Below are positions 6,664 to 22,203 of a DNA stretch of 22,845 nt, piece after piece. The notes under the pieces were generated by a model. It did no database searches. It was not told the DNA's origin and worked only from the letters and a program-made list of their open reading frames with translations. The DNA comes from a virus, in the IMG/VR virus record IMGVR_UViG_3300025135_000030, positions 1-22,845 of that record; one strand, given 5' to 3'. The translations under genes were made by a program, and so were the position numbers. The stretch's first letter is position 1, and each line of letters starts with the position of its first letter.

Positions 6664-8616
6664 ATGACAATCGAAAATAACCGCGTTGCCAGTGTCTCCC
6701 TGGTCACCGAGCTGGTCTCGGATTTCCTGTCCTACTCGACTTCTATATACAACCGGGCATTGCCGGATATCGTCGACGGGCTTAAAATCGCCCAACGCCG
6801 GTCCCTACTCGGACTCAAAGACCTGTCCTTAACCAGCAAATCCCCCTACTGCAAGGTGTCACGGCTGGAGGGGCACGTCTTGGGCAAGTATCACCCGCAA
6901 GGTGGATGTTCGGGGACCGTAATCAACATGGGTCAGCAGTCGGCCATGCGCTACGTGCTTACGGATATCCACGGAAACGCGGGCGGTAGTATCCAAACCG
7001 GACCGGCTATCGGCCAGTTGATTAGCGAGGATGCCCCAGCCGCCTCCAGGTACCTCGAGGTCCGGGCAACACCGCTCTGTGAGTCGCTATACCTGTCTCA
7101 GATCGATAGGGGGCTGGGGTTGTGGCGTCAGAACTATGACGACACCACGACCGAGCCGGTCCGGATCGTCCCCGCTCTGCCCGCTCTGCTCCTGACCGGA
7201 GCCCAGGGCATCGCATCGGGCTACGCGTGCTATCACGTCCCCTACTCCGTCAAAGACGTGGTCTCGGTGACTTCTGCCTGGATACGGAACCGGTCACTCT
7301 CGGATAAGCAGATTGTCTCGAAGTTCTCCGAGCCCCCCGAGCCGCCACAGGGAGGACGGGTCGAAAAGTCCCCGGGCCTTTCCGAGATCATCCTGCATGG
7401 CCGGGGTCAATTCACCGTTTACGGGGAGTGGGAAGTTGACGACTCGATGCCGTGGCGGAAAAAGTCGGTCCGGCCGGGCATCGTGATCACCCGTCTCGCC
7501 CACGGTTCGTCGGAAAAGTTTCTTGAGAAGGTGCGAGATCTCGCCGATACGGATAGGCTGCCTGGCCTCATCGATGCCGCGGATCACTCGAGCCGGGACG
7601 GGATACGAATCGTCCTGGTAGCCAAGACCGTCCCCGAGCGTGATGAGATCCTCGCCACGCTGGTGGCGGCTACGGGCCTAAAGCATCAATACAATGTGAA
7701 TTGTACGGCTGTAGGGTTGGACGGAATGCCCAGGACCGTGGGTGTCCGAGACGTCATTGAGGCCTGGTATGGGGAGCGGGTCTCATACCTGACGCAGCGG
7801 TACACGGCGGAGAAGGCATCTCTCGAGAGTGAGAGCGAAAAACTTACCGGGTTAGTAACGATTCTGGACGAAGTCGGCAGGTTTGTGGATATTGTGAAAA
7901 AGTCATCTGACAAGGTGACCGCGGTAGCCGCCATCTCAAAGCGGTGGAAACTCACCGAACCCGTGGCACGCTATCTCCTAACCATTCCGATCAGCACGCT
8001 GATCCGGACTGAAGGGGAGAAGGTACGGCTCGAGCTGGAGAAGATTAGGGGAGATATCGCTTCCCTCGAGCCGCTATGCTCCACCGGCGGCGATTTAGAT
8101 ACCCATATCCTATCTCAAATCGCCTCTCAGAGGGGCCTACAAGGCCCAGGAAGGTGCCTCTGGATGACTGTAGGTGTCCCGGTGGCCAAAGCGGTAAATA
8201 AGCCTATCCCCGTGAAGGAAAAAATTATAACCGAGGGCAGAGGGTTGGGCATGTCGGTACGATCCGTAAATCAGTGGATTTCGGATAATATCGGCAAGGG
8301 CAGTATAGCGACGAAATGGGATCTGTACAAGGAGGAATATGAGCACCGGGTGTCAATGACAACGAGAGCGGGTAAACAACGACGGAAGGAACGTCTTCTC
8401 GCTCTTCGGGCCGACGCGGAGTCTCGGGGACTACCGACTCGCGGCAGGTACGGGTGGAAATCTTTTATGGCCGGACACGAATCTGCGCGGATTGACCGAA
8501 TCGTGCTAGACTTAGAGGCGTGGATTGAACAACATGCCAAACCCAGTAAAACTGCAACTGACACCCGAGCAACTAGCCCTCGCTCACGCCGAGGCGGAAA
8601 GACGTCAAACGGTTAA
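6664..8616 (+). CDS. Type IIA DNA topoisomerase, cleavage (A) subunit
   Basis: A 650-residue homolog of GyrA/ParC and phage T4 gp52, the subunit that cuts and rejoins both strands. The winged-helix start shows RALPDIVDGLKIAQRR (residues 31-46), the KYHPQGG loop (75-81), and the active site AASRYLEVR with catalytic Arg129-Tyr130. The tower and coiled-coil parts follow (about 370-470). It is longer than T4 gp52 (about 440 residues) and lacks an obvious GyrA beta-pinwheel; the last 170 residues are of unknown type and very basic. No ATPase (B) subunit lies in the window. The final 92 bases overlap the next gene in another frame. It would relieve supercoiling and separate replicated DNA. Confidence 0.93.
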   Translation: MTIENNRVASVSLVTELVSDFLSYSTSIYNRALPDIVDGLKIAQRRSLLGLKDLSLTSKSPYCKVSRLEGHVLGKYHPQGGCSGTVINMGQQSAMRYVLTDIHGNAGGSIQTGPAIGQLISEDAPAASRYLEVRATPLCESLYLSQIDRGLGLWRQNYDDTTTEPVRIVPALPALLLTGAQGIASGYACYHVPYSVKDVVSVTSAWIRNRSLSDKQIVSKFSEPPEPPQGGRVEKSPGLSEIILHGRGQFTVYGEWEVDDSMPWRKKSVRPGIVITRLAHGSSEKFLEKVRDLADTDRLPGLIDAADHSSRDGIRIVLVAKTVPERDEILATLVAATGLKHQYNVNCTAVGLDGMPRTVGVRDVIEAWYGERVSYLTQRYTAEKASLESESEKLTGLVTILDEVGRFVDIVKKSSDKVTAVAAISKRWKLTEPVARYLLTIPISTLIRTEGEKVRLELEKIRGDIASLEPLCSTGGDLDTHILSQIASQRGLQGPGRCLWMTVGVPVAKAVNKPIPVKEKIITEGRGLGMSVRSVNQWISDNIGKGSIATKWDLYKEEYEHRVSMTTRAGKQRRKERLLALRADAESRGLPTRGRYGWKSFMAGHESARIDRIVLDLEAWIEQHAKPSKTATDTRATSPRSRRGGKTSNG

Positions 8617-9810: not shown

Positions 9811-10420
9811 TAGCTTGGTTCAGGGCGTATCTTCGTCCGATACGATCGAAGACGGGAAAGCTGTGCTCGTTTCAACGGCCTGGGGACCCTCGGATCAGGG
9901 GTTTTATCGGGCCCGGTCGTGTTATTTACTGGTCAGGGAGAGGTTTCGAGCCGAGACGCTGGTAATTTACCCCGCGGTGGGAGATTTTCTGCCTATTTTT
10001 GGCTGTGAGTACATCGAATTGCCGCATAAACGGTTCGGGGCGGTCGATTTTCACCCCGTAAACGGCAATATCGCCCCGGTGGCTGACTATCTCAGCAACG
10101 AACCCGACCGAACGGTCGAAAAGTCCGCCCATTACGACTTGGATACCCATTTTTCCCCGAAACTCTGGCTGGAAAGGGGCTCGGATCGGGATATTTACGC
10201 GAGATTCCAGGAAAAAGCCAAAAAGTACGTCTCAACGTACCTGGGGATGTTGGCTGACCACTCCAGCGTCTCTGGAGACGGCCCTCACACCCACATTGGC
10301 TATAACAGCTACATGGCCGAGCACGACCCGGCCCATGGTATACTCAAGTCGTACTTCGGGCCCGAGTTCGCTCGTGACTACATTGAAAAATTCCTGTTCC
10401 CGTGTCCGGTTCGTTGTTAG
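9791..10420 (+). CDS. Hypothetical protein, 209 residues
   Basis: A soluble protein of unknown function starting at GTG, overlapping the AbrB-like gene by 20 bases. There is a beta-rich N-terminal half (CYLLVRERFRAETLVIYP) and a His/Tyr/Pro-rich second half (GPHTHIGYNSYMAEHDPAH). The histidines might bind a metal, but I cannot assign them to a known fold. It lies in the rightward run of small genes between topoisomerase and speD. Confidence 0.65.
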   Translation: MSEVWVNSLVQGVSSSDTIEDGKAVLVSTAWGPSDQGFYRARSCYLLVRERFRAETLVIYPAVGDFLPIFGCEYIELPHKRFGAVDFHPVNGNIAPVADYLSNEPDRTVEKSAHYDLDTHFSPKLWLERGSDRDIYARFQEKAKKYVSTYLGMLADHSSVSGDGPHTHIGYNSYMAEHDPAHGILKSYFGPEFARDYIEKFLFPCPVRC

Positions 10421-10451
10421 TTCTTCATTTTCGAAGACTATTAAGCTAGAA

Positions 10452-10808
10452 ATGCTTGACGAGTTTAAATGGTTGAGCGAAAATGCTCCGGATTCGTTAG
10501 CGATTCACATGTCTCCGAGTAACTGCAGGGAATTTGATGAGGAGGGGGTGTTTCTCAACGAGTTATGCATGGTCCGGATTACCAATCAGCAGGTTTATAA
10601 GATCCTGTCCCGCATCGACAAGTTGCTTTTGCATACGGAGAAGGGAATTGAGTCCAAACTGGGTAAACTGTTTGAGCCTGAGACCCGGAGTAAGTCTGGC
10701 CGCTGGTCGGGACACGGGCCCGGGTCGGTAAAGATCTTTTCCCCCACACTTATGTGCTGGTACGATGGCCGTGACTGGAGAAAAATCGATCCGAAGACAT
10801 GGTTCTGA
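10452..10808 (+). CDS. Hypothetical protein, 118 residues
   Basis: The start is taken at ATG 10452, since the longer frame to 10296 overlaps the preceding gene heavily and reads as low-complexity Ser/Thr. The product begins MLDEFKWLSEN and ends with an aromatic segment (CWYDGRDWRKIDPKTWF). It has a helical middle with a Lys/Leu pattern (KILSRIDKLLLHTEKG). Its stop overlaps the start of the next gene by ten bases. No family is recognised. Confidence 0.62.
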   Translation: MLDEFKWLSENAPDSLAIHMSPSNCREFDEEGVFLNELCMVRITNQQVYKILSRIDKLLLHTEKGIESKLGKLFEPETRSKSGRWSGHGPGSVKIFSPTLMCWYDGRDWRKIDPKTWF

Positions 10809-11626
10809 TCTGTCCGGGCCGAATGACCAAGACTCACGGCCAGTTCCTAGCCGATCACCCCACAGCGACTAAGTATAAATACTTAGGCGTCGACGTGGGG
10901 TCAGCCGACTTCCTGTACGAGTCAGAGTCTCCGGAACTCACTCTGTGTACGAATGAGAAATTTATCCTCGAGCTGCACAAGTTCCTCTCCATGCCCCGTT
11001 CGACCCGGATCGTCAGGGAGGTATGGGAACAAGAGTTTTTGTCCGGTACGGATATAGTTCGGTCTCGGGACATTCTTAGAGTCCACAACCACCGCAGCGT
11101 TTTGAGGCTTAAGGTCTTACGGGACTGGAAAGACGTGGCAAAATACTACTGTCTCCTGGCACAAGCCGGCTACTCATATCATTACGAGAAGAGGAAACTT
11201 GTTGTAGATCTGCTTAACCCCATAACACCCCCGTACGACCGTATCGACGAGTGGAGAAAGAGGACTGAGGGCAGGAGGATACGATATCGACCGAAGAGTA
11301 TTTATTGCCTACCTACGTCCCTAATTGATACGGAGACAGCGATCTACATCCACCTGCCTCTGCAGTTCGGTCAGTACGGGTGCGGATATGCCTGGAGCAG
11401 GAGAAAACTGGCCTTCATGGTCTCCCAGCTAACCGAGCTGGCCGGCTTAGGCTACAAAATAGTGGTCAGTGCGGCGCATGGGAAATACGGCCGTGAAATG
11501 CCAATTGCCCGCAACCTTTTACCCCCACCGCTCTTCACCCCTTTCATATACTACGAGTTGAAAGCTAAAAGTAGGTATGGGTTCAACAACTCGAGTTCCG
11601 AGGTATTTTATTGTGCGAATTTCTGA
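10799..11626 (+). CDS. Hypothetical protein, possibly a degenerate D12-type DNA methyltransferase
   Basis: A 275-residue protein. The C-terminal third resembles the layout of D12-class (Dam-like) adenine methyltransferases: a strand where DPPY is expected but reading AIYIHLPLQF, an aromatic loop (YGCGYAWSRRKL), a helix, the strand GLGYKIVVSAAHG and a terminal strand (SSEVFYCANF). The SAM-binding FxGxG motif is not evident at the N-terminus and the Asp-Pro-Pro-Tyr is replaced by His-Leu-Pro. It is therefore either a diverged, perhaps inactive relative or a chance likeness. ATG at 10799 is used; ATG at 10823 is a second option. Confidence 0.6.
   Translation: MVLICPGRMTKTHGQFLADHPTATKYKYLGVDVGSADFLYESESPELTLCTNEKFILELHKFLSMPRSTRIVREVWEQEFLSGTDIVRSRDILRVHNHRSVLRLKVLRDWKDVAKYYCLLAQAGYSYHYEKRKLVVDLLNPITPPYDRIDEWRKRTEGRRIRYRPKSIYCLPTSLIDTETAIYIHLPLQFGQYGCGYAWSRRKLAFMVSQLTELAGLGYKIVVSAAHGKYGREMPIARNLLPPPLFTPFIYYELKAKSRYGFNNSSSEVFYCANF
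11557..11566 (+). promoter_or_regulatory. GTTGAAAGCT element upstream of speD
   Basis: One of four exact copies of this 10-mer in the window. This one lies in the 3' end of the preceding gene, 70 bases before the preferred speD start (10 bases before the longer alternative). It contains TTGAAA, which resembles a -35 hexamer, but no -10 is found at standard spacing. In this copy it may be only coding sequence. Confidence 0.3.
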
Positions 11627-11636
11627 CGAACCTGCT

Positions 11637-11969
11637 ATGGGACATCACGTCCTCCTGAATCTGTACGACTGCGATGAAAGTCGTCTGTCGGACCTAGCTG
11701 GTTTTGAAGGATTTGCTGATAGCCTGCTGCCAGGCTGTAATGCCCAAGTCCTTAATCGGCTCGGGCATCAGTTCAGCGGTATGGGGGACGGCTTCACGTC
11801 CCTGTATCTACTAACCACCTCGCACTTCTCGGTTCATAGCTGGCCGGAGTACTGCTCCGCCGCGGTAGACATTTTCACCTGCGGTGCGGTGGATACGGAC
11901 GAGATCGTAAAGAAGATCGTGATGTACTTCCGGTCCTCTCGACACTCGCTGTCCGATGTGCTAAGGTGA
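11637..11969 (+). CDS. speD: S-adenosylmethionine decarboxylase proenzyme
   Basis: A 110-residue bacterial-type SpeD. It makes decarboxylated AdoMet for spermidine synthesis after self-cleavage creates a pyruvoyl group. Counting from ATG 11637, the processing serine is Ser62 (TTSHFSVHSWPE), the proton donor His67 and the catalytic Cys82 (DIFTCG). These numbers are one below those of the Thermotoga enzyme, which supports this start over ATG 11577, which would add 20 residues and overlap the upstream gene. The residue before the cleaved serine is Thr, whereas Glu is usual. speD is known as a host-derived gene in some cyanophages and would raise polyamines for packaging or replication. Confidence 0.9.
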   Translation: MGHHVLLNLYDCDESRLSDLAGFEGFADSLLPGCNAQVLNRLGHQFSGMGDGFTSLYLLTTSHFSVHSWPEYCSAAVDIFTCGAVDTDEIVKKIVMYFRSSRHSLSDVLR

Positions 11970-11996
11970 CGGGGTACTCAGCAAACTGCTCCATCC

Positions 11997-12143
11997 ATGG
12001 CGAAGAAACCGTCCTTGACAAACGCTAGCGCTCTGAAGTTTGAGAGCAATCCGAAAAAGACCAGGCAAGGTCGTGGGATTAATACGAAGTTGAGTGCGAC
12101 GAGCCGTAATGGCCGTAGAAAAAGGTACCGGGGTCAGGGCTGA
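11997..12143 (+). CDS. 48-residue basic protein
   Basis: A short gene starting at ATG 11997 and ending at TGA 12143. The product begins MAKKPSLTNASALKF, continues with NPKKTRQGRG and ends RNGRRKRYRGQG. It is very rich in Lys and Arg and probably binds RNA or DNA. Short proteins with this SLTN start and KRYRGQG end seem familiar from cyanophages, from memory only. The gene lies 27 bases after speD and ends 12 bases before the tRNA cluster. Confidence 0.7.
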   Translation: MAKKPSLTNASALKFESNPKKTRQGRGINTKLSATSRNGRRKRYRGQG

Positions 12144-12155
12144 CGCCCGTTTTCT

Positions 12156-12229
12156 GCGGGATTAGCAATCTGGTTGAATGCACCGAACTCATAATTCGGC
12201 ATAGGTGGGATCGTTCCCCACATCCCGCA
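12156..12229 (+). tRNA. tRNA with CAU anticodon (elongator Met or Ile2)
   Basis: A complete cloverleaf: acceptor GCGGGAT/ATCCCGC, a D arm with GG, anticodon stem CCGAA/TTCGG around CTCATAA (anticodon CAT) and T stem GTGGG/CCCAC. The first base pair is G-C, so it is not an initiator. Met versus lysidine-modified Ile cannot be decided here. The T loop reads ATCGTTC, with A54 and T58 in place of T54 and A58. No CCA is encoded. Confidence 0.88.
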
Positions 12230-12235
12230 GAGAAA

Positions 12236-12323
12236 AACCGATGGATGGCGGAATTGGCAGACACAGCGCACTCAAAATGCGCCGCCGAAAGGCATGAGAG
12301 TTCGAATCCCTCCGGGTTGGTTC
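12236..12323 (+). tRNA. tRNA-Leu (CAA), atypical acceptor stem
   Basis: The D arm (GCGGAATTGGCAGA), anticodon arm (GCGCA-CTCAAAA-TGCGC, anticodon CAA), three-base-pair variable arm (GCC/GGC) and T arm (GAGAG-TTCGAAT-CCCTC) are clearly those of a bacterial tRNA-Leu. The acceptor is odd: the best helix, AACCGAT with GTTGGTT, lies three bases too far out, leaving GGA opposite CGG unpaired next to the body. The D stem has one C-A mismatch. It may be decaying or have an unusual fold. No CCA is encoded. Confidence 0.6.
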
Positions 12324-12400
12324 GGGAGTCCTATAACACTTCCGGTAATATAGGATAAAGCAAGCTCGGTTAGCTACTTTTTCTGGTTCCCAACCCACTT

Positions 12401-12477
12401 GTCCGCTTAGCTCAGTCGAACAGAGCAACTGCCTTCTAAGCAGTCGGTCGGGGGTTTGAATCCCTCAGCGGACGCCA
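12401..12477 (+). tRNA. tRNA-Arg (UCU), CCA encoded
   Basis: A complete cloverleaf with acceptor GTCCGCT/AGCGGAC, D stem GCTC/GAGC, anticodon stem ACTGC/GCAGT with loop CTTCTAA (anticodon TCT, reads AGA), T stem GGGGG/CCCTC, discriminator G and encoded CCA. The D loop has G18-A19 and the T loop T54-T55-T56, so the G19-C56 elbow pair is replaced by A19-T56. Confidence 0.92.
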
Positions 12478-12548
12478 GCGGGTATAGTGTAGTGGTAACA
12501 CGAGAGTTTTCCAAACTCTAATCAGGGGATCGTACCCCCTTTCCCGCT
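12478..12548 (+). tRNA. tRNA-Gly (UCC)
   Basis: A compact 71-base tRNA starting directly after the CCA of tRNA-Arg with no spacer, so one cleavage yields both ends. Acceptor GCGGGTA/TTCCCGC (one T-T mismatch), anticodon stem AGAGT/ACTCT with loop TTTCCAA (anticodon TCC), T stem AGGGG/CCCCT. The T loop ATCGTAC again has A54 and T58. A run of T residues follows and may end the tRNA transcript. Confidence 0.88.
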
Positions 12549-12569
12549 TTTTCTCTTACCTTCCTGAAC

Positions 12570-14053: not shown

Positions 14054-14182
14054 TTGAAAATCTCTGTAAAATCCCTATGGGATCTGTTCTGTTTTCCCGT
14101 CCGTTTATCCGTTTCAGAAAAGTTCGCCCTGTACTGTAAGGAGAATCCGTGGGCACCGGAAGCGAGAATTTACGATCTGTGA
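14054..14182 (+). CDS. 42-residue hypothetical protein, TTG start
   Basis: A short frame beginning at TTG 14054 and ending at 14182, inside the start of the phosphatase gene. It begins MKISVKSLWDLFCFPVRLSV and ends ENPWAPEARIYDL, a well-formed short protein with an aromatic hydrophobic half and an acidic end. The frame continues upstream to 13997 but that part reads poorly. I see no clear ribosome binding site. Function unknown. Confidence 0.5.
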   Translation: MKISVKSLWDLFCFPVRLSVSEKFALYCKENPWAPEARIYDL

Positions 14183-14826
14183 GGGGACCTTACGCGTTTG
14201 TAGGGGATTTGCACGGGCGAGTAGGTCTACTCGATCTCATTCTGAGTCGTGATCCAAAACGCAAGTACCATTACGTGTTTATGGGCGATGTAATTCACCA
14301 CAAACCGTTTTTTAAACATAACAAGAGAACTTCGCCAATCCGAATGCTCCGTGCCATATCCGATCTAATCGGGGAGGGACGCGCAACCCTCCTGCTAGGA
14401 AATAACGAAAACTACATACTCCGGAGTTTAATTCTGCCCGAGCAGGAGATTAAAAAGAAAGAGGTAAAGTATACATTAAAATGCCTTAAGGAGGTGAGTT
14501 TGGACGAAAGACTAAAATTCGTTAACATGATGTCTAACGCACCCCTCTCTCTCGAGCTGGAGGGGAAATTTCGTCTCGCTCACGCGTACTACCCCCACCC
14601 CGGGACCAATGTGTCTCGAGATACCTGCCTGCACGGCCCGGGTTATGTCTGGTTCAGAGACGACAATGTGTCCGACCGTCACAATCTCGATCCTGCTTAC
14701 ACCTACTTCTTCGGGCACTACGGACTCCCCTACTACCGGGAGAATATCCGCATCGTCGATGCGACGAGCCTCGAGGCGGCCGGAGTCTACTACTCAGACC
14801 GGGACGAGTTCATGGTATACTACTAA
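14149..14826 (+). CDS. Calcineurin-like metallophosphatase
   Basis: A 225-residue protein of the metallophosphatase superfamily (PrpE, lambda phosphatase and ApaH relatives). Metal-binding motifs are in order: GDLHG (Asp20, His22), GDVI (Asp47), GNNE (Asn85-Asn86-Glu87), LAHAYY (His145) and FGHYG (His190). The fold binds two metals and hydrolyses phosphate esters; substrates could be phosphoproteins, diadenosine tetraphosphate or nucleic-acid ends. The usual catalytic His in GNHE is Asn, which may lower or change activity. GTG 14149 follows a very good AAGGAG site at five bases, which fixes the start. Confidence 0.85.
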   Translation: MGTGSENLRSVRGPYAFVGDLHGRVGLLDLILSRDPKRKYHYVFMGDVIHHKPFFKHNKRTSPIRMLRAISDLIGEGRATLLLGNNENYILRSLILPEQEIKKKEVKYTLKCLKEVSLDERLKFVNMMSNAPLSLELEGKFRLAHAYYPHPGTNVSRDTCLHGPGYVWFRDDNVSDRHNLDPAYTYFFGHYGLPYYRENIRIVDATSLEAAGVYYSDRDEFMVYY

Positions 14827-14847: not shown

Positions 14848-17583
14848 ATGTTTCAAAACTGCCTCGGTTACTCGGTCCTGCCCCCTGCGATGGCCCGAGC
14901 GGTCTTTGGAGACGCCGCAGTAGACGGTTATAAGCCGGATCTGTCCACGGTCCCCTCGATCACCGAGGAGATGGAGAGCTTTGGCGTGGAGTTCCCGATC
15001 AAGAATCCAGAGCAGTTAGTTGAGCTGCCGGAGTTCAAGTTGCCCCGCATCACCGGGAAGGACATTGCCGACCATTTCGACCGGATCGGTAAAGAAATCT
15101 TGTCAGAGAAAGTAGCTCTGCTGAAGGAGTTTGCGGATGTCGACCTAGTCGACCCACCGACCGAGACGGATATTGTCTACGAAACAGGCTGGACGAGGTA
15201 CCGTCCGTTGCCGAACGGTAAATGGACTATCGAGAGTCTGGGGGACACGGGTCTGTCCGGCGTACCTATTGCCGTCTTCGACTGTGAGACCTTTGTCAAA
15301 GGGACGGAGTTCGGCCACCCCATCCTCGCCACCGTAGTCGGGCATGACGGCTCGTACTATGTCTGGATGCATGAATCGTTTGTCGATCCGGCCGTCCCAT
15401 ACACCCCGCAACTCGTCCCGCTTGGTACGAACAACACGCTCCTGATCGCCCATAACGTAGGGTTTGATAGGCAACGTACTCTGGAGTCTTACGACCTACG
15501 GCATGATCCGTTTCATCCGGATTCGCCTCACGGGAACTTATGGTTCGATACAATGTCCGCCCACATCAACGTTAGTGGTTTGGCATCGGATCAGAGGTTC
15601 TGGTACCAGTCATCCCAGACAACTCCCTCGTACAAGAAGGAGACTCCGCCGGCCTGGTCGGACAAGGGCTGCATGAACAACCTGATCGATGTGTATAACT
15701 TTCACTATATGCCCCTGGTACCACTAGAAAAAGAGACAAAAAAGACTCGTAATCTCTTCGTCGTTGCAGATTCGATGGAGGATTTTGTCCCTGATCGTGA
15801 CAGGCTCGTAGCCTACGCCCTCAACGACGCGAAGATAACTTTCGAGCTGTACTCCGTCCTCGTCCTTAAATACCTGCAAGCCAATCCGTCTCTCACAACG
15901 CTATACGGGCATTTCGCACAGACCTCGTCGATTCTCCCTGTCACCCCGAGCTGGTACGGGTGGGTGGAGAATTGCGAAAAGGTCTGGGACGAATCGATCA
16001 GGAGGCAGGACGAACTCCTGAGCGAGTTGGCTCAACAGTTACTGGATGACTGGCGTAGCGACGATGTCGATACGGAGAACGATCCTTGGTTCAGTCAGCT
16101 TGACTGGGATGCGAATTACGCCCTGAAGAAAGATGGTAACCCTAAATCCCAGTGGTACGGGGTTCCGATGTGGTACAGGAAGAACGCTAAGTACGATAAA
16201 GAGACTAAGACGATTCGGCTTGAGCCTATTACGTCGAAAAGTCGTCTCAGCCACATCCTGCTCCGGCTTAAGTGGCGTGGTCAACCGATCACCTATGTCC
16301 CGGACAAGGGCTGGATGTTCAACAACCCCGAATCGGGTAAGCCGGAGAGGATTCCTCACCCCAACGGCGAGGGGGTCAATGTTGGCGGGGTTCTGAGCAA
16401 AGACTACCTGCCCGAGTTTGAGTCGGGCGTTCTGTCTAGCGACTTGCCACAGGCCCAGGAGCTGATCCGCCTCGCGGTCAAAGTGTCCTACTGGACCTCG
16501 GTCCGGAGCCGTGTCAAGTCGCAATTAGCCCGACCCGCGAACGACGCTAATCTGACCGTCATCGTGCCCCAGACCGTCCCCCACAACACCGCGACAAATC
16601 GGGCCGGTGAGCATCTGTGGCTGACGGTTCCTGACCCCAAGCCGGACAAGATCGGGACTGAGGTGAAGACTAGGGTCCAGGTTACATCCCCTTACACTTT
16701 TATCTCGTCCGATTATGACGGCCAGGAATCCGTCGTAGCCAGCATTTTTGCCGATAGTTACTACCAGATAGCCGGTAGCACGCAGTTCGGGCATAGCGTT
16801 CTGGCCGGGTCTAAAGACGATGGTACAGACATGCATAGTATGACGGCTAAGGCGATCGGGATTTCCCGAACTATCGCCAAGAACTGTAATTATGGCATGC
16901 TTTATGGTTCTGGCGTAAAGACGTTGGCTACGACTATCCGTAAGGGGAATAAGTCCATTAGCGTCGACGAAGCCAAGAAGATGGGTAAGACCCTGATCGA
17001 GAAGAAGAAGGGCTGGAAAGCGTCGGATATCTCCTCCAATCTGGTTGGGGGGAGCGATTCGCACGCCTACAACGAAATGGCCCGCATCGCTAATAGTAAC
17101 GTCCCCCTCAACCCGTTAAGCCGGACGAAGATGTCGACGGCTTTCCGGCCCGCCTCTGTCAAGAACGAGTTCTTTACGATGCGGAATAACTGGGTGATCC
17201 AGTCTACGGGCAGCGCGATGCTGCATGCGTTTCTCACCGCTATGGAGCATTTGACTCGTCGTTACGGTGTCAAGGACGTCCGCTTCTGCATGTCCGTTCA
17301 CGACAGCGTGCTGTACATGTGTAAGGAGGACGACGCTGATCTCGTTTCCGCCCTGTACCAGGTCGCCCACCTCTGGTCATGGGCCTGGCTCCGGTTTAAT
17401 TACGGTATCTGCGAGATGCCCCATGCCAACGCCTGGTTCAGTAGCATCGAGGTCGACAAGGTGTTTCGGAAGTCGGCGACGGCGAGCACGGTGACCGTAT
17501 CACAGCCCGTTCCCGAGCCGGATGGCCGTGCCCATACGATCTCTAGCCTGGTTCCTGTGCTAGATTCGTTAAGCGATAACTGA
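14848..17583 (+). CDS. Family A DNA polymerase, mitochondrial Pol gamma-like, with proofreading
   Basis: A 911-residue replicative polymerase. 3'-5' exonuclease motifs are complete: ExoI VFDCET (Asp145, Glu147), ExoII HNVGFD (Asp207) and ExoIII YALND (Tyr323, Asp327). Polymerase motif A is SSDYDGQES (Asp622, Glu627), motif B RTIAKNCNYG (Arg674, Lys678, Tyr682) and motif C SVHDSV (Asp819). Segments such as GISRTIAKNCNYG, FFTMRNNWVIQS, VGGVLSKDYLP and DPWFSQLDWD parallel human POLG closely, much more than E. coli Pol I or T7 gp5. It is shorter than human POLG (1239 residues), mainly at the N-terminus. Motif C carries Ser820 where nearly all family A enzymes have Glu. It likely replicates the phage genome. 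Confidence 0.93.
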   Translation: MFQNCLGYSVLPPAMARAVFGDAAVDGYKPDLSTVPSITEEMESFGVEFPIKNPEQLVELPEFKLPRITGKDIADHFDRIGKEILSEKVALLKEFADVDLVDPPTETDIVYETGWTRYRPLPNGKWTIESLGDTGLSGVPIAVFDCETFVKGTEFGHPILATVVGHDGSYYVWMHESFVDPAVPYTPQLVPLGTNNTLLIAHNVGFDRQRTLESYDLRHDPFHPDSPHGNLWFDTMSAHINVSGLASDQRFWYQSSQTTPSYKKETPPAWSDKGCMNNLIDVYNFHYMPLVPLEKETKKTRNLFVVADSMEDFVPDRDRLVAYALNDAKITFELYSVLVLKYLQANPSLTTLYGHFAQTSSILPVTPSWYGWVENCEKVWDESIRRQDELLSELAQQLLDDWRSDDVDTENDPWFSQLDWDANYALKKDGNPKSQWYGVPMWYRKNAKYDKETKTIRLEPITSKSRLSHILLRLKWRGQPITYVPDKGWMFNNPESGKPERIPHPNGEGVNVGGVLSKDYLPEFESGVLSSDLPQAQELIRLAVKVSYWTSVRSRVKSQLARPANDANLTVIVPQTVPHNTATNRAGEHLWLTVPDPKPDKIGTEVKTRVQVTSPYTFISSDYDGQESVVASIFADSYYQIAGSTQFGHSVLAGSKDDGTDMHSMTAKAIGISRTIAKNCNYGMLYGSGVKTLATTIRKGNKSISVDEAKKMGKTLIEKKKGWKASDISSNLVGGSDSHAYNEMARIANSNVPLNPLSRTKMSTAFRPASVKNEFFTMRNNWVIQSTGSAMLHAFLTAMEHLTRRYGVKDVRFCMSVHDSVLYMCKEDDADLVSALYQVAHLWSWAWLRFNYGICEMPHANAWFSSIEVDKVFRKSATASTVTVSQPVPEPDGRAHTISSLVPVLDSLSDN

Positions 17584-18123: not shown

Positions 18124-18498
18124 ATGCGTAAAACTCTATCACTAGCATTTGTTACAGCTTTGGGTCTTCTCGCCCTATCACCTGCCGCTAACGCAGTAGG
18201 TAGCCGGGTCTGCGGAGGCGCAAGCTTTTACGGAAGGGGTGACGGATTTGCCTGGCAAACCACTGCTAGCGGAGTCCCTATGGACCCTAACGCTATGACC
18301 ACGGCCCACCGTTCGCTGCCATTTGGTACCCGTATTCAGGTAACCAATAACAGTAATGGTAAGTCCGTGATCGTACGTGTCACTGACCGAGGACCGTTTG
18401 TCGGAGGTCGTGTAGTCGACTTGTCCTACGGGGCATTTTCAGCTATCGCGGCACCGTCGACCGGAGTAACGAATGTCTGTTATACGAGACTAAGCTGA
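18124..18498 (+). CDS. Secreted RlpA-like double-psi beta-barrel protein
   Basis: A 124-residue protein with a standard signal peptide (basic start, hydrophobic LSLAFVTALGLLAL, cleavage after Ala-Asn-Ala at residue 24). The mature part is one RlpA domain: GGASFYG, TTASGVPMD, MTTAHRSLPFGT and VTDRGPFVGGRVVDLS. The residues matching the catalytic His and Asp of Pseudomonas RlpA are His62 and Asp88, so it may cleave peptidoglycan glycan strands; the C-terminal SPOR domain of cellular RlpA is absent. It stands alone with its own leader and a terminator. In a phage it might act in lysis or modify the host wall early. Confidence 0.88.
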   Translation: MRKTLSLAFVTALGLLALSPAANAVGSRVCGGASFYGRGDGFAWQTTASGVPMDPNAMTTAHRSLPFGTRIQVTNNSNGKSVIVRVTDRGPFVGGRVVDLSYGAFSAIAAPSTGVTNVCYTRLS

Positions 18499-18505
18499 TA
18501 GTCGG

Positions 18506-18533
18506 GGGGAGGAGGGAGTCATTCTTCCTCCCC
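18506..18533. terminator. Bidirectional terminator-like hairpin
   Basis: GGGGAGGAGG (18506-18515) pairs with CTTCCTCCCC (18524-18533), one wobble, eight-base loop, with TTT on the plus strand after it. It lies between the convergent RlpA-like and Dps-like genes and covers the last codons of the latter. Confidence 0.6.
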
Positions 18534-18965
18534 TTTCTCGTCTTCAGCCACAGCATGCTGCTTATTAACCGATCCGAGCAGGTACTTAACCTTCGCCATG
18601 TCCACCATCAGGTCCTCGACAAAGCTGAGTACGGCATACTCTTCGGCGTCATCGGCTTTCTTATGAAGGCTTTTCATCGAATCGCATAGGTCCTCGGCTA
18701 CATCGTACAGTTCCTCGGTCAGTTCCTCGGGCGTAGACCACTCCAGCTCAGGTACGCTGTGATAGATTTTAGCCGGGATCTCTACGCCGTATCCGCGAGC
18801 CAATTCCGCCGTACCATCAATCTTTTCCTCTACGATTTCGTAGACACGTTCGAATAGCAGGTGGAAGCTATAGAACTGGGGTCCGTCTACATTAAGATGA
18901 CTAAGATGTGCCGCGCCAGCGAAGTTTCGCTGTGCTGTGAGTAGTTCGATGAAAGCGGATTCCAT
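18519..18965 (-). CDS. Dps-like mini-ferritin
   Basis: A 148-residue four-helix protein. His23, His35, Glu39, Asp50 and Glu54 fall at exactly the spacing of the ferroxidase residues of Dps (His31, His43, Asp47, Asp58, Glu62 in the Listeria protein), within HLSHLNVDGPQFYSFHLLFE and KIDGTAELARGYG. Dps forms 12-mers that oxidise and store iron and protect DNA from peroxide. The C-terminal tail is acidic. The start is set at ATG 18965; the frame extends to ATG 19025 with 20 low-complexity residues, overlapping the upstream gene. The leader is purely pyrimidine-rich. It is the last gene of the minus-strand structural block, so it could also be packaged or act late. Confidence 0.75.
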   Translation of the reverse strand: MESAFIELLTAQRNFAGAAHLSHLNVDGPQFYSFHLLFERVYEIVEEKIDGTAELARGYGVEIPAKIYHSVPELEWSTPEELTEELYDVAEDLCDSMKSLHKKADDAEEYAVLSFVEDLMVDMAKVKYLLGSVNKQHAVAEDEKGEEE

Positions 18966-19005
18966 GGGAGAGAAGGGGGAGAGGGAGGGGTGAGGAGAAA
19001 AGCGG

Positions 19006-19950
19006 CTAGGAGACCGGCCCTTCATTATAGACCTTGTTCAGGGCAACTCCGATCGGCTGATAGGCCGAAGTAGTCGGCAGTGTGTTAGGAACTGTGCCGA
19101 CTGAATTGCGCCATAGGCCCATCTCGATATTCAGTTTAAACCAGTCGGGGTATTCAGTACCTGCTTTGATCCCTTCTCTCGTACACTTCCATACTTTGTT
19201 AAGAGTTCCTGAAATTACTTTGGAGTTATCGATACTCCCGTCCGGCCTGATCGCGCTGATCGGTACGAACGTGTATGTGGCGTCGCCACTTCCCTCCAGA
19301 CCGGTACACTGGACGGATAGATTGTCCCCAATCAGCCTGCCACAACGACCGTCCTCGACGACGTAGGTTTGGGTCGTATCAGGTCCGAGAGTTCGACGCC
19401 ACACCGCTAAGCCGGTCTGCCTACCATCCGGCGTGACGAGGCATTTCCGGACGGGCAGGAAATCGCCGATACTTACCGGATCGAACGCGGCACAGGGCTG
19501 GGAGTAGAATCGGCCGTCGGTAATCAGGACTTCGATAGAGTAGGTCTGCTCATAAATGAACTGAGACGCTTCCTTCGTGACCTGGACGAATCTTTCCGAC
19601 TCGAGTTCAAAGCCGGTTTGGAACTCCAGACCGGGAAGTTCTGGCACCCAGCCCGTTACGGAGTCGGCCAACAGATCGAGGATAGGTAGGCAGAACGAAT
19701 GTCCTTCGCGCTGAGCCTGCTTCTGGACCAGTGTCAGTGTGTAGTTAACTCGCCGTGTACGGACGGTGGGGATGTATGCTCCCTTGTTGGGGTTGTTAGT
19801 ATTCGCGCTGGTAAACGAGACGATGATCATCGCCTGCTCTGCGACCCTGCCGGACTGGTCGAGTTCCTCGGCTAGACGCAGTACTACCGCGCTCTGCCCT
19901 AGGGTCGAGTGAATCCGTCGATGCAACATGTTTTCAATCTCGAGCAGCAT
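19006..19950 (-). CDS. Structural protein, Mu Gp37-like (tail terminator candidate)
   Basis: A 314-residue protein. Residues about 1-150 show the layout of the Gp37/DUF1834-type tail proteins: an N-terminal helix (MLLEIENMLHRRI), strands with MIIVSFTSAN and RRVNYTLTLVQ, a helix ILDLLADSVTGWVP and a late strand (IYEQTYSIEVLI). In Mu-like phages this protein caps the tail tube. The second half (160-314) is beta-rich and of unknown type. Start at ATG 19950; TTG 19980 would run into an inverted repeat. A Gp36-like gene lies upstream on the same strand at 21421-22203, as in Mu order. The assignment is by pattern only. Confidence 0.55.
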   Translation of the reverse strand: MLLEIENMLHRRIHSTLGQSAVVLRLAEELDQSGRVAEQAMIIVSFTSANTNNPNKGAYIPTVRTRRVNYTLTLVQKQAQREGHSFCLPILDLLADSVTGWVPELPGLEFQTGFELESERFVQVTKEASQFIYEQTYSIEVLITDGRFYSQPCAAFDPVSIGDFLPVRKCLVTPDGRQTGLAVWRRTLGPDTTQTYVVEDGRCGRLIGDNLSVQCTGLEGSGDATYTFVPISAIRPDGSIDNSKVISGTLNKVWKCTREGIKAGTEYPDWFKLNIEMGLWRNSVGTVPNTLPTTSAYQPIGVALNKVYNEGPVS

Positions 19951-19969
19951 GGCGAAATATACCGTCCAA

Positions 19970-19995
19970 AAAGCTTTCAACGCGGTGAAAGCTTT
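19970..19995. promoter_or_regulatory. Perfect inverted repeat with GTTGAAAGCT copy, divergent promoter region
   Basis: AAAGCTTTCA (19970-19979) and TGAAAGCTTT (19986-19995) form a ten-base perfect dyad around ACGCGG, in the gap between divergent genes at 19950 and 20016. On the minus strand it contains GTTGAAAGCT (19972-19981), 21 bases before the ATG at 19950. It probably controls one or both genes. Confidence 0.55.
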
Positions 19996-20015
19996 AAGAA
20001 GAAGGGGAATTTGAC

Positions 20016-20237
20016 ATGTCGACTGATCGGATTTTTTGGGAGAACACTCTGGACTCGAAGTGGCGCTGTTACGTCTTAATGCAGACGGACACGTACGGGT
20101 ACCTGAGGATGGAGGATATCGCTACGGGCCAGAGGGTGCTTGACCGGGAAGTCCCGGTCTCACGCTACTTCCGGACCGACGACATCATCGGTTGGGGGAA
20201 TATCTGCATGATCGAGGCTCGGAGACTCGAGCGGTGA
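20016..20237 (+). CDS. Hypothetical protein, 73 residues
   Basis: First gene of a rightward cassette inserted between leftward structural genes. A small beta-rich protein (WRCYVLMQTDTYGYLRMED) with a mixed end (IIGWGNICMIEARRLER). An AAGGGG site lies before the ATG. The next gene starts at a GTG overlapping its stop. No family is recognised. Confidence 0.62.
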   Translation: MSTDRIFWENTLDSKWRCYVLMQTDTYGYLRMEDIATGQRVLDREVPVSRYFRTDDIIGWGNICMIEARRLER

Positions 20238-20389
20238 AGGGCCTGGAACACCACGTCAAGCAGTTACTGAAGCGCATGATGCAGGCCCAGGAGGTGACGG
20301 ATCGCGAGAGGGCACGGAAGATCTTGCGGAAAGCCGAAAAGCACAGGGAGAAGCTGGAACGGGCCGGGAAGTGCTATGATACTGAGTGA
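20234..20389 (+). CDS. 51-residue basic helical protein
   Basis: Starts at GTG in a GTGA overlap with the preceding stop, nine bases after GGAG; a longer frame to 20192 ignores this coupling. The product is one long, strongly charged helix (QAQEVTDRERARKILRKAEK). It could bind nucleic acid or a partner as a coiled coil. Function unknown. Confidence 0.58.
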   Translation: MKGLEHHVKQLLKRMMQAQEVTDRERARKILRKAEKHREKLERAGKCYDTE

Positions 20390-20488
20390 CGGATGACAGC
20401 CCCGCTGCCGGTGCCGTCCCGCTCTTTCAGGGCGGTAAGGGGGCCCTTTCCTCGAGTGTGACCCAGCGTCGTACTTCCCGGGCCCTCA

Positions 20489-20555
20489 GGCAGTTGGCGT
20501 TGGATTGCGCCAGGTAGATAGCCTGGAGAACTAGGTTCGAATCCTAGAACTGCCC
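20489..20555 (+). tRNA. tRNA-like gene with shortened D arm, anticodon position GAU
   Basis: Perfect acceptor GGCAGTT/AACTGCC, anticodon-type stem CCAGG/CCTGG with a seven-base loop TAGATAG, and a perfect T arm CTAGG-TTCGAAT-CCTAG. Only 14 bases lie between acceptor and anticodon stem (usually about 19), so the D arm is reduced. Position 33 is A, not U. Positions 34-36 read GAT, which would decode Ile. It is either a decayed tRNA, a tRNA-like structural RNA or an unusual functional tRNA. Confidence 0.5.
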
Positions 20556-20577
20556 TTTACCCCTCCCCCTCCCGATA

Positions 20578-20640
20578 GTGACTTTACTACTCGTCATCCA
20601 GGTCTCCCTGGCCGTCTTCGGTATGTGCCTGGCCGCTTAA
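20578..20640 (+). CDS. Possible 20-residue hydrophobic peptide
   Basis: A GTG-started frame (20578-20640) that would encode a purely hydrophobic peptide (LLLVIQVSLAVFGMCLAA). Its length suits one membrane helix. A C-rich leader precedes it. Frames this short arise by chance, so this is only a candidate. Confidence 0.25.
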   Translation: MTLLLVIQVSLAVFGMCLAA

Positions 20641-20648
20641 AAGAGGAA

Positions 20649-20684
20649 ATGACAGCAGCAAGACGTCGCCGACAAAAGCTATGA
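20649..20684 (+). CDS. Possible 11-residue leader peptide of the deaminase gene
   Basis: ATG 20649, right after AAGAGGAA, opens a frame for MTAARRRRQKL. Its stop overlaps the deaminase ATG as ATGA. Since the deaminase start itself has no ribosome binding site, ribosomes may reach it by reading this leader. The four consecutive Arg codons could make this sensitive to arginine-tRNA supply. Confidence 0.3.
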   Translation: MTAARRRRQKL

Positions 20685-21067
20685 GCCTCATCGAACCTCG
20701 CCTCTCCGAGCAGGTCCGGATCCTCGCCATGTCGTCTTCGTCTCGCTGGAGAGTTGGCTGTGTCCTGCTGAGAAGGGGCAGGGTGGTGGTCAGCACCACT
20801 AACGTCGAGGGCAAGACGCATCCCCGGCAATCCGAACTCGCCGGGAGGGTCGGACAGCCCTACCGCCGCTCCCTGCACGCCGAGCTCAGAGCGTTGCTGA
20901 AGGCCAGGGTAGAGGTCGATACGTTGGTCGTGGGACGTGTCAACAGCCGTAACGAACTATGCCTGTCTAAACCCTGCCCCGTGTGCCAGCTTGCCCTGCT
21001 CGAGGCGGGCATTACCGACGTCTATTACTCTATCGATGGGGGTGGGTGGGAGTCCCTCGGGCCTTAA
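20681..21067 (+). CDS. Cytidine/deoxycytidylate deaminase-like protein
   Basis: A 128-residue member of the cytidine deaminase fold. The zinc site is HAE (His66, Glu68) plus PCPVC (Cys99, Cys102). The preceding strand VGCVLLRRGRVVVSTTN and the GITDVYYS strand after the zinc helix are typical. Possible substrates are dCMP (feeding dTMP synthesis) or other cytosine compounds. It lacks the allosteric extra segments of long phage dCMP deaminases (about 190 residues in T4). It ends overlapping the convergent structural gene by four bases and belongs to the rightward cassette inside the structural block. Confidence 0.82.
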   Translation: MSLIEPRLSEQVRILAMSSSSRWRVGCVLLRRGRVVVSTTNVEGKTHPRQSELAGRVGQPYRRSLHAELRALLKARVEVDTLVVGRVNSRNELCLSKPCPVCQLALLEAGITDVYYSIDGGGWESLGP

Positions 21068-21414
21068 AATTCTCCGCCAGACACGAAGTCCAGGAGCTCC
21101 CACAATCCCGTGGTGTAGTTATACGCCAGGATATCTCCGGGCTGCGGAGACCGGGTAAAGTTTACATCGGCGAGATCGCGAAGTTTCCTGGTCGCCTCGA
21201 GATTGATAATGTACTGACGAAGTTCGCTGGCCGTCTGCTTGTACGGAGTGGAGTCGGGAAATACTCCGAACGACGAAATAGTCAGCCCGAGAAGTCCGCT
21301 ACTGTTATAGCTGCAGGCGCTACTGCTCGCGTTAGGTACGATGGTCAGGAGGCCAGAGCCGCCCGGCTGAGCAGGATTGAAGGGGTCGTAGCCGTAAGGT
21401 TGATTTAGGGACAT
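21064..21414 (-). CDS. Virion-associated protein with C-terminal shared domain
   Basis: A 116-residue protein following the Gp36-like gene on the minus strand by six bases. The N-terminal half is Pro/Gly/Ser-rich with strands (LLTIVPNASS, LLGLTISSFGV). The last 55 residues align without a gap, to the very last Phe, with the C-terminus of the upstream Gp36-like protein. They contain LRDLADV and PQPGDILAYNYTTGLW, a motif resembling the LxDLxDV...PxxGxVLxY segments common in cyanophage tail fibres. It is probably a structural or fibre-attachment protein. There is no clear ribosome binding site. Confidence 0.65.
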   Translation of the reverse strand: MSLNQPYGYDPFNPAQPGGSGLLTIVPNASSSACSYNSSGLLGLTISSFGVFPDSTPYKQTASELRQYIINLEATRKLRDLADVNFTRSPQPGDILAYNYTTGLWELLDFVSGGEF

Positions 21415-21420
21415 GGTGGA

Positions 21421-22203
21421 TTAGAAGCTATCGGCTTCCTGCAGGCCGCCGGTTGTGAAGTCCCCGTCACTGTCTTCAACGACAAGGACGTCTCCTTCGG
21501 CGGGTGTGGCAGCGTTTTGGGTGTCGGCGAACGAGGCGACGTCGCGAGTAGTTTCCAGGTCGTCGAACAGCTTATTGACTTCGAGAGCGCTGTCACCGAT
21601 CAGGGTCACGTTATTGCGGTCGAGAGAGCCGCTGGGTTCACGGCTCGTCACGTTGTCGATAACGACGGCACCTTTCCGTTTGTACGGGTTCCAACGATTG
21701 TTCGTGGACCAACGCATCTCCCAGCGGGCCAGTGAGGTATCCGTAAGTGCCCGTTCCCTTTGCGTGTTAGACATTGTCATCGAACACGCACTACTCCAGT
21801 AGCGATAGGCCTCTTGCCACTTCAGGCCGGATGAGGGAGATGATTTGCTTGCCCAGAGCTCGAGTTGCTTCAGGGCGGCCTCTGCCGCGTCGATGACCTG
21901 TTGTCGAGGACGGAGGGTGTCGAGATACCAGCGAGCTATTGTGGCCTGTGTACGGCGGTATGAGCCGGCGATAAGCAGTTTTCCTTGCGGCGGGGCTGTC
22001 TCCGCGTAGTTGTTTACGAGTAAGGCGGCGTCGTTCAGGGCGACCTGAATTCGTTGATGGTTTATATTATTAGCTGTCGGATCTTCGAGCCGAGAGAGCT
22101 CGAGGGCTTCGTTAAATCCGAAAATTTCGATGAAATAGTCGACGGTGGCAGGCTCGCAGTTGTTGGCTACGCCAAAAGAGTCTGGGGGTGGTGTGTACGC
22201 CAT
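21421..22203 (-). CDS. Structural protein, Mu Gp36-like (head-tail adaptor candidate)
   Basis: A 260-residue protein. Residues about 20-120 follow the Gp36/DUF1320-type pattern: VDYFIEIFGFNEALELSR, then RIQVALNDAALLVNNYAET and RRTQATIARWYLD, and a final helix (AEAALKQLELWA). In Mu-like phages this helical protein joins portal or connector to the tail. The middle part (130-200) has basic and aromatic residues. The last 55 residues (GDSALEVNKLFDDLETTRD, PAEGDVLV) repeat the C-terminus of the next gene's product. GTTGAAAGCT lies 23 bases before the ATG. Assignment is by pattern only. Confidence 0.6.
   Translation of the reverse strand: MAYTPPPDSFGVANNCEPATVDYFIEIFGFNEALELSRLEDPTANNINHQRIQVALNDAALLVNNYAETAPPQGKLLIAGSYRRTQATIARWYLDTLRPRQQVIDAAEAALKQLELWASKSSPSSGLKWQEAYRYWSSACSMTMSNTQRERALTDTSLARWEMRWSTNNRWNPYKRKGAVVIDNVTSREPSGSLDRNNVTLIGDSALEVNKLFDDLETTRDVASFADTQNAATPAEGDVLVVEDSDGDFTTGGLQEADSF

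Follow-up and report, generated by a model that had tools for sequence, protein, structure and literature searches.

POLG is the enzyme that copies DNA in the mitochondria of animals and fungi. The origin of this replicase has long been a question, as two papers recount: alphaproteobacteria are without POLG, and a phage source has been proposed from a few cyanophages (PMC7156551, PMC4928673). The same papers and a third cite work in print since 2011 on POLG in cyanophages and how it may be linked to mitochondria (PMC7156551, PMC4928673, PMC3914683).

The stretch of DNA analysed here (the window) is taken from IMG/VR, where it forms a virus record 22,845 bases long. It is a fragment (22.8 kb) and not a whole genome, and an initial annotation had recognised in it a Pol gamma-like polymerase in a phage. 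The locus raises the questions of whether this gene is a true member of the POLG family, what it does for the phage, and what it can say about the source of the mitochondrial enzyme. The best explanation, to which we assign a probability of about 95%, is that it encodes the POLG-family replicative, proofreading polymerase of a tailed phage closely related to S-TIM5, with a DUF5906 protein and a flap nuclease as its probable partners. The window polymerase adds to a known group of cyanophage POLGs, and its kind is not new. What the analysis adds is the size of the clade, tests on rooted trees, the HDS motif throughout the clade, and a pairing of POLG with a primase in the absence of Twinkle. 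The features on which the analysis draws are collected in Table 1.

Table 1. Genes and motifs of the window; positions are those of the 22,845-base record, residue numbers those of the window polymerase
Feature	Position	Strand	Remarks
Type II topoisomerase subunit	6664–8616	+	Collinear with S-TIM5 gp010
Calcineurin-like metallophosphatase	14149–14826	+	Directly upstream of polG; kept there in the clade and in S-TIM5
POLG-family replicative DNA polymerase gene (polG)	14848–17583	+	ORF, Pfam, PHROG and PDB matches, tree, structure
Exo I motif VFDCET (D145, E147)	15274–15291	+	Corresponds in the alignment to VFDVE (mouse POLG, yeast Mip1)
Exo II motif AHNVGFD (D207)	15448–15468	+	Alignment, conservation
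Exo III motif YALNDAKIT (Y323, D327)	15814–15840	+	Alignment, conservation
Motif A SDYDGQE (D622, E627)	16708–16728	+	Alignment, conservation
Motif B / O-helix RTIAKNCNYGMLYG (R674, K678, Y682, Y686)	16867–16908	+	Alignment, conservation
Motif C HD (H818, D819)	17299–17304 (HDS 17299–17307)	+	Followed by Ser where POLG has Glu
Genes after polG with S-TIM5 homologues in the same order	19006–22203	-	19006–19980, 21064–21414, 21421–22203 (head-tail adaptor)

Sequence and motifs of the window polymerase

The open reading frame begins with an ATG and continues uninterrupted through a protein of 911 aa. In Pfam this protein matches PF18136 (DNApol_Exo, mitochondrial polymerase exonuclease) over residues 62–340 with E 3.4e-42 and 145 bits, far above the curated cut-off of 26.7, and PF00476 (DNA_pol_A) with E 3.8e-12. 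Its match to PHROG_22619, DNA polymerase, is at 2.9e-297. A search of PDB sequences placed POLG chains at all of ranks 1–14, with yeast Mip1 the best match (5e-106, 359 bits) and mouse and human POLG at 1.7e-88 to 5e-80; the first polymerase other than POLG was a bacterial Pol I, at E 1.1.

The three Exo motifs and motifs A and B, described as intact in the initial annotation, were all found, and residues D145, E147, D207, D327, D622, E627, R674, K678, H818 and D819 are unchanged in 33 phage homologues. The set of residues that marks a family-A palm, comprising the catalytic Asp of motifs A and C and the Arg and Lys of motif B, is complete, and motif C reads HDS. The same HDS occurs in every one of the 106 sequences checked from the S-TIM5/window clade, and HDE in the other clades checked; with HDS in place of HDE, the catalytic efficiency of the enzyme is not certain. 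Mitochondrial POLG (human/mouse, yeast Mip1) resembles the window polymerase in its exonuclease and polymerase domains joined by a spacer, with which the spacer of the window polymerase aligns. The mitochondrial enzyme differs in its length, about 1,240 aa against 911, which leaves the phage protein some 300 aa shorter than human POLG, and in the Glu of motif C. Y682 stands in the alignment where POLG has the tyrosine of NYG. An O-helix tyrosine is associated with the known dideoxynucleotide sensitivity of mitochondrial POLG, and by analogy the window polymerase is predicted to be sensitive to ddNTPs.

Fold and separation from Pol I and T7 polymerases

An AlphaFold model of the window polymerase, built from 33 phage sequences, has a mean pLDDT of 88.3 and a pTM of 0.87. 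When this model was used as a Foldseek query, matches 1–36 were all POLG or Mip1, with E from 1.9e-56 to 8e-23, and T7 polymerase came next at 5e-14. In VIA-align, 856 residues superposed on POLG at 3.2 Å (Z 38.5), compared with 460 residues at 7.0 Å (Z 17.0) on the best Pol I; across the POLG structures Z was 28–38, with 756–864 residues aligned. Taken over its whole length, the fold of the window polymerase is nearer that of POLG than those of other family-A enzymes. In rooted trees, phage and eukaryotic POLG form a group with 100/100 support against eight outgroups (Pol I, T7 and other family-A polymerases), and the same holds with four. The window polymerase did not group with Pol I in either outgroup tree, and T7 gp5 lay in the outgroup with the 100/100 branch between them; identification as a bacterial Pol I or as a T7-type DNA polymerase was rejected on these grounds.

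It could be argued that the enzyme is an ordinary phage family-A polymerase of the Pol I or T7 kind, its likeness to POLG being generic to that family, because PF00476 matches and because Pol I and T7 structures are also recovered, at lower scores. We give this argument practically no weight. The interval in the PDB search between POLG (5e-106 to 5e-80) and Pol I (1.1), the branch that sets POLG apart from eight other family-A polymerases and the structural Z of 38 against 17 refute it by sequence search, tree and structure alike. We conclude from sequence, structure and phylogeny together that the window polymerase is a genuine POLG-family enzyme. The three checks proposed in the initial annotation, namely a profile search, a phylogeny including eukaryotic POLG and cyanophage homologues, and comparison of a predicted structure with those of POLG, all agree with its assignment; the contrary outcome it had named, a better fit among Pol I or T7-like polymerases, did not occur.

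The phage that carries the gene

The named relatives of the window polymerase are S-TIM5 and its kin (57% identity), S-CBWM1 (34%), Mic1 (31%), A-HIS2 (31%) and A-HIS1 (30%), which bears out the statement in the initial annotation that such enzymes have been reported in a few cyanophages. A scan of IMG/VR with the single protein alone returned no relatives; alignment-based scans found at least 181 there. They include a group 64–75% identical to the window polymerase. The window and its uncultured relatives form a clade (100/99) that is sister to the S-TIM5 (Aurunvirus) group, and the polymerases of S-TIM5, S-TIM54, S-TIM61 and S-TIM66 share with it the same motifs, including HDS, at 57% identity over 98%.

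The resemblance extends to the surrounding genes. Thirteen of the window proteins tested match the S-TIM5 regions compared, mostly in the same order, which runs from topoisomerase II through the metallophosphatase and polG to the head and adaptor genes; the S-TIM5 group likewise has the metallophosphatase upstream, structural genes downstream and a topoisomerase II. The sister-clade placement, together with these largely ordered matches, identifies the window, at the level of sequence, as a piece of an Aurunvirus-like phage, and upholds the assignment of the polymerase to a phage. S-TIM5 has two psbA matches, whereas none was found in the three longest relatives of the window clade, an absence that does not exclude a cyanobacterial host. 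The window also carries four phage tRNA genes (Met, Arg, Gly and Ile) at 12155–12549 and 20489–20555, and at 18124–19025 a gene for a DPBB lytic-transglycosylase-like protein adjoins an opposite-strand gene for a Dps-like protein.

Probable replisome partners and role of the polymerase

S-TIM5, A-HIS1 and Mic1 each encode a 'DNA primase' of PHROG_25243 with DUF5906. This primase is present in 11 of the 11 POLG phage records tested, which span every branch and take in the most divergent one (L083); it is absent from T7. A tblastn search over 50,697 phage records found it in nine, exactly the nine whole-genome records with POLG, two further POLG records being single-gene deposits; the POLG phages are related, so that these are not nine independent events, and several deep branches are covered. 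A stand-alone flap-endonuclease family occurs in nine of ten POLG phage records. DnaB_C, the family of the helicase domain of Twinkle, and T7-type RNA polymerase were each found in none of ten such records, with T7 scoring as the positive control for both. Mitochondria, in contrast to the POLG phages tested, have the DnaB-type Twinkle as partner helicase. Shared replication genes in Mic1, A-HIS and S-CBWM1 have already been noted in a passage of PMC7156551; the portions of the literature covered here hold no report of a phage-wide match between POLG and the primase, or of a missing Twinkle-type helicase.

Read by eye, the motifs of the DUF5906 primase comprise a Walker A (GEPGVGKT), an acidic DD and an Asn motif (ANCN) in an SF3-helicase-like arrangement, and the protein has one weak RNA_helicase match. 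A search for a solved structural relative found none, and the predicted model (pLDDT 38) was not used. Taken together, the Pfam DUF5906 assignment, the RNA_helicase match and the motifs suggest that the 'primase' is probably an SF3-type helicase. The long relatives carry both the primase and the flap-endonuclease gene; since neither falls within the 22.8-kb fragment, we infer their presence in the window phage itself.

In the most likely scheme, the window polymerase would copy the phage genome as a single polypeptide. To judge from the motifs and the model, its palm, fingers and thumb would extend the primer and its N-terminal DEDD exonuclease would proofread; the DUF5906 protein would probably act as the replisome helicase or primase, and a stand-alone 5'-3' flap endonuclease would probably take the primers off. 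That the polymerase is instead a repair or auxiliary enzyme seems to us very improbable. The window is partial, which gives such a view some room, but the parts of S-TIM5 examined have no second polymerase annotated that could serve as replicase, and gp075, labelled 'polymerase', is by Pfam a 5'-3' exonuclease. Moreover, the linkage of POLG to the primase is perfect across deep lineages in the records examined.

Relationship to mitochondrial POLG

Adding the window and its uncultured relatives, over 100 in number, makes a family with several deep branches out of what was a handful of phage POLGs. This enlargement makes possible a rooted test in place of an argument from similarity, and the window polymerase is useful for testing the source of the mitochondrial enzyme. 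The genes that go with POLG in phages are now visible too, and Twinkle-type helicases are not among them. A bearing on the phage origin of the mitochondrial enzyme had been claimed in the initial annotation; we accept it, the argument itself having been in print between 2011 and 2020.

Eukaryotes are represented in our trees by yeast and mouse, taken from PDB alignments, with the C-terminus of the mouse sequence incomplete, and the outgroup branches of the rooted trees are long. Mic1 forms a clade with yeast and mouse POLG with support of 98–100 in full-length, exonuclease-half and polymerase-half trees, and branches outside the two eukaryotes (99–100/98–99). In the eight-outgroup tree the eukaryotes stand with Mic1 (99/99), inside the phage sequences. 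Joining the eukaryotes to the window clade was rejected (AU p=0.0017). In these trees the nearest phage kin of mitochondria is the Mic1 branch and not the window lineage, and a special closeness between the window lineage and mitochondria finds no support. Placing all phage POLG in one clade was rejected with eight outgroups (p=0.028) but gave p=0.087 with four, the deepest branching also changing, and for this reason a passage from phage to mitochondrion, in which eukaryotic POLG would arise within the phage sequences, is favoured with moderate support and not proven. A constraint uniting every phage but Mic1 in one clade was not rejected (p=0.199).

Two other histories have to be weighed. 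All phage POLG might descend from one capture from a eukaryote, from mitochondrion to phage and perhaps by way of a protist or alga. The fragility of the rooting, evident in the two p values for a single phage clade, and a eukaryotic sample of two sequences speak for this, and we nonetheless consider it unlikely: the best rooted trees put eukaryotic POLG beside Mic1 inside phage diversity, variation among the phage lineages is much greater, and each of these lineages has the same primase alongside POLG. It is also somewhat unlikely that Mic1 alone exchanged with eukaryotes, taking its POLG from one, while the remaining phage POLGs, those of the window clade included, form an old family to which the mitochondrial enzyme is sister. 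Such an exchange would fit the scores of Mic1 POLG against yeast Mip1 (606 bits) and mammalian POLG (565), compared with 359 for the window polymerase against Mip1, as well as the result for the clade of phages without Mic1, but it sits poorly with the position of Mic1 outside yeast and mouse and with its retention of the phage primase and flap endonuclease.

Since none of the ten POLG phage records tested has a DnaB/Twinkle helicase or a T7-type RNA polymerase, Twinkle and POLRMT would need another source even if mitochondrial POLG came from such phages. We tentatively suggest, with a confidence a little short of even, that POLG is an old phage replicase in a fixed pair with a DUF5906/SF3-like primase-helicase, that a branch near Mic1 gave the polymerase only to the animal/fungal mitochondrial ancestor, and that POLG, Twinkle and POLRMT came from at least two phage sources and not as one module.

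Other carriers of POLG

The enzymes of S-CBWM1, A-HIS1 and A-HIS2, with their uncultured relatives, belong to the POLG family like that of the window but differ from it in an insertion before the O-helix, a Phe at the NYG position and HDE at motif C; S-CBWM1 and A-HIS1 both have the partner primase and flap endonuclease. The polymerase of Mic1, a Microcystis phage, is like that of the window in its O-helix Tyr, with the primase also in common. Mic1 is unlike the window in being the phage branch that groups with eukaryotes and in carrying a group I intron inside motif A (11244–11516 of the Mic1 record; Rfam RF00028, E 2.2e-10, just below the gathering score). A 298-bp intron in Mic1 polG has already been reported, its class not being stated in the passage concerned (PMC7156551). 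A scan for more Mic1-like phages with eukaryote-like motifs gave only near-copies of Mic1.

Two uncultured POLG genes are split by stop-containing gaps, of about 0.9 kb in one (L087, 11597–12483) and about 0.3 kb in the other (L086, 3129–3419). Neither gap had an Rfam match; these may be introns that went unrecognised, or the gene may be in two parts. A 77-kb contig (L083) encodes, at 9959–12397, a very divergent short POLG of 812 aa, together with the same primase family; in one rooted tree this POLG branches deepest among the phage sequences.

Among cellular sequences, a scan of 84,980 prokaryote genomes with short-peptide patterns, which can miss members, returned a single match, itself a phage contig. 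This contig (CALGUV010000039.1) has sheath and portal genes and is binned in a Microbacteriaceae MAG, which points to either a binning error or a non-cyanobacterial host. A plasmid scan with short-peptide patterns, subject to the same limit, gave no POLG. There is no sign of a bacterial POLG from the prokaryote and plasmid scans.

Repeats in the window

The initial annotation had also described a DnaA-box-type iteron region and regarded the replication system as unusual on its account. DnaA boxes (TTATNCACA, with at most one mismatch) number 13 in the window against 11.9 expected and show no clustering above chance; the only perfect one sits inside the polymerase gene. With the boxes at chance level, a DnaA-dependent iteron origin near polG was rejected, and the unusual character founded on it lapses. 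A dense intergenic repeat array that does not consist of DnaA boxes lies at 2097–2630, about 12 kb from polG, and had no match in any relative compared. It contains six direct copies of GGGGGCCTTCGTGTAGTTT, several of them 20–21 bp apart, as well as inverted ones, five copies of AAAATTTTCCATAAAAACGAC and four of the palindrome CTTGCGCTGCAAGGG, and is a candidate origin, promoter array or recombination site.
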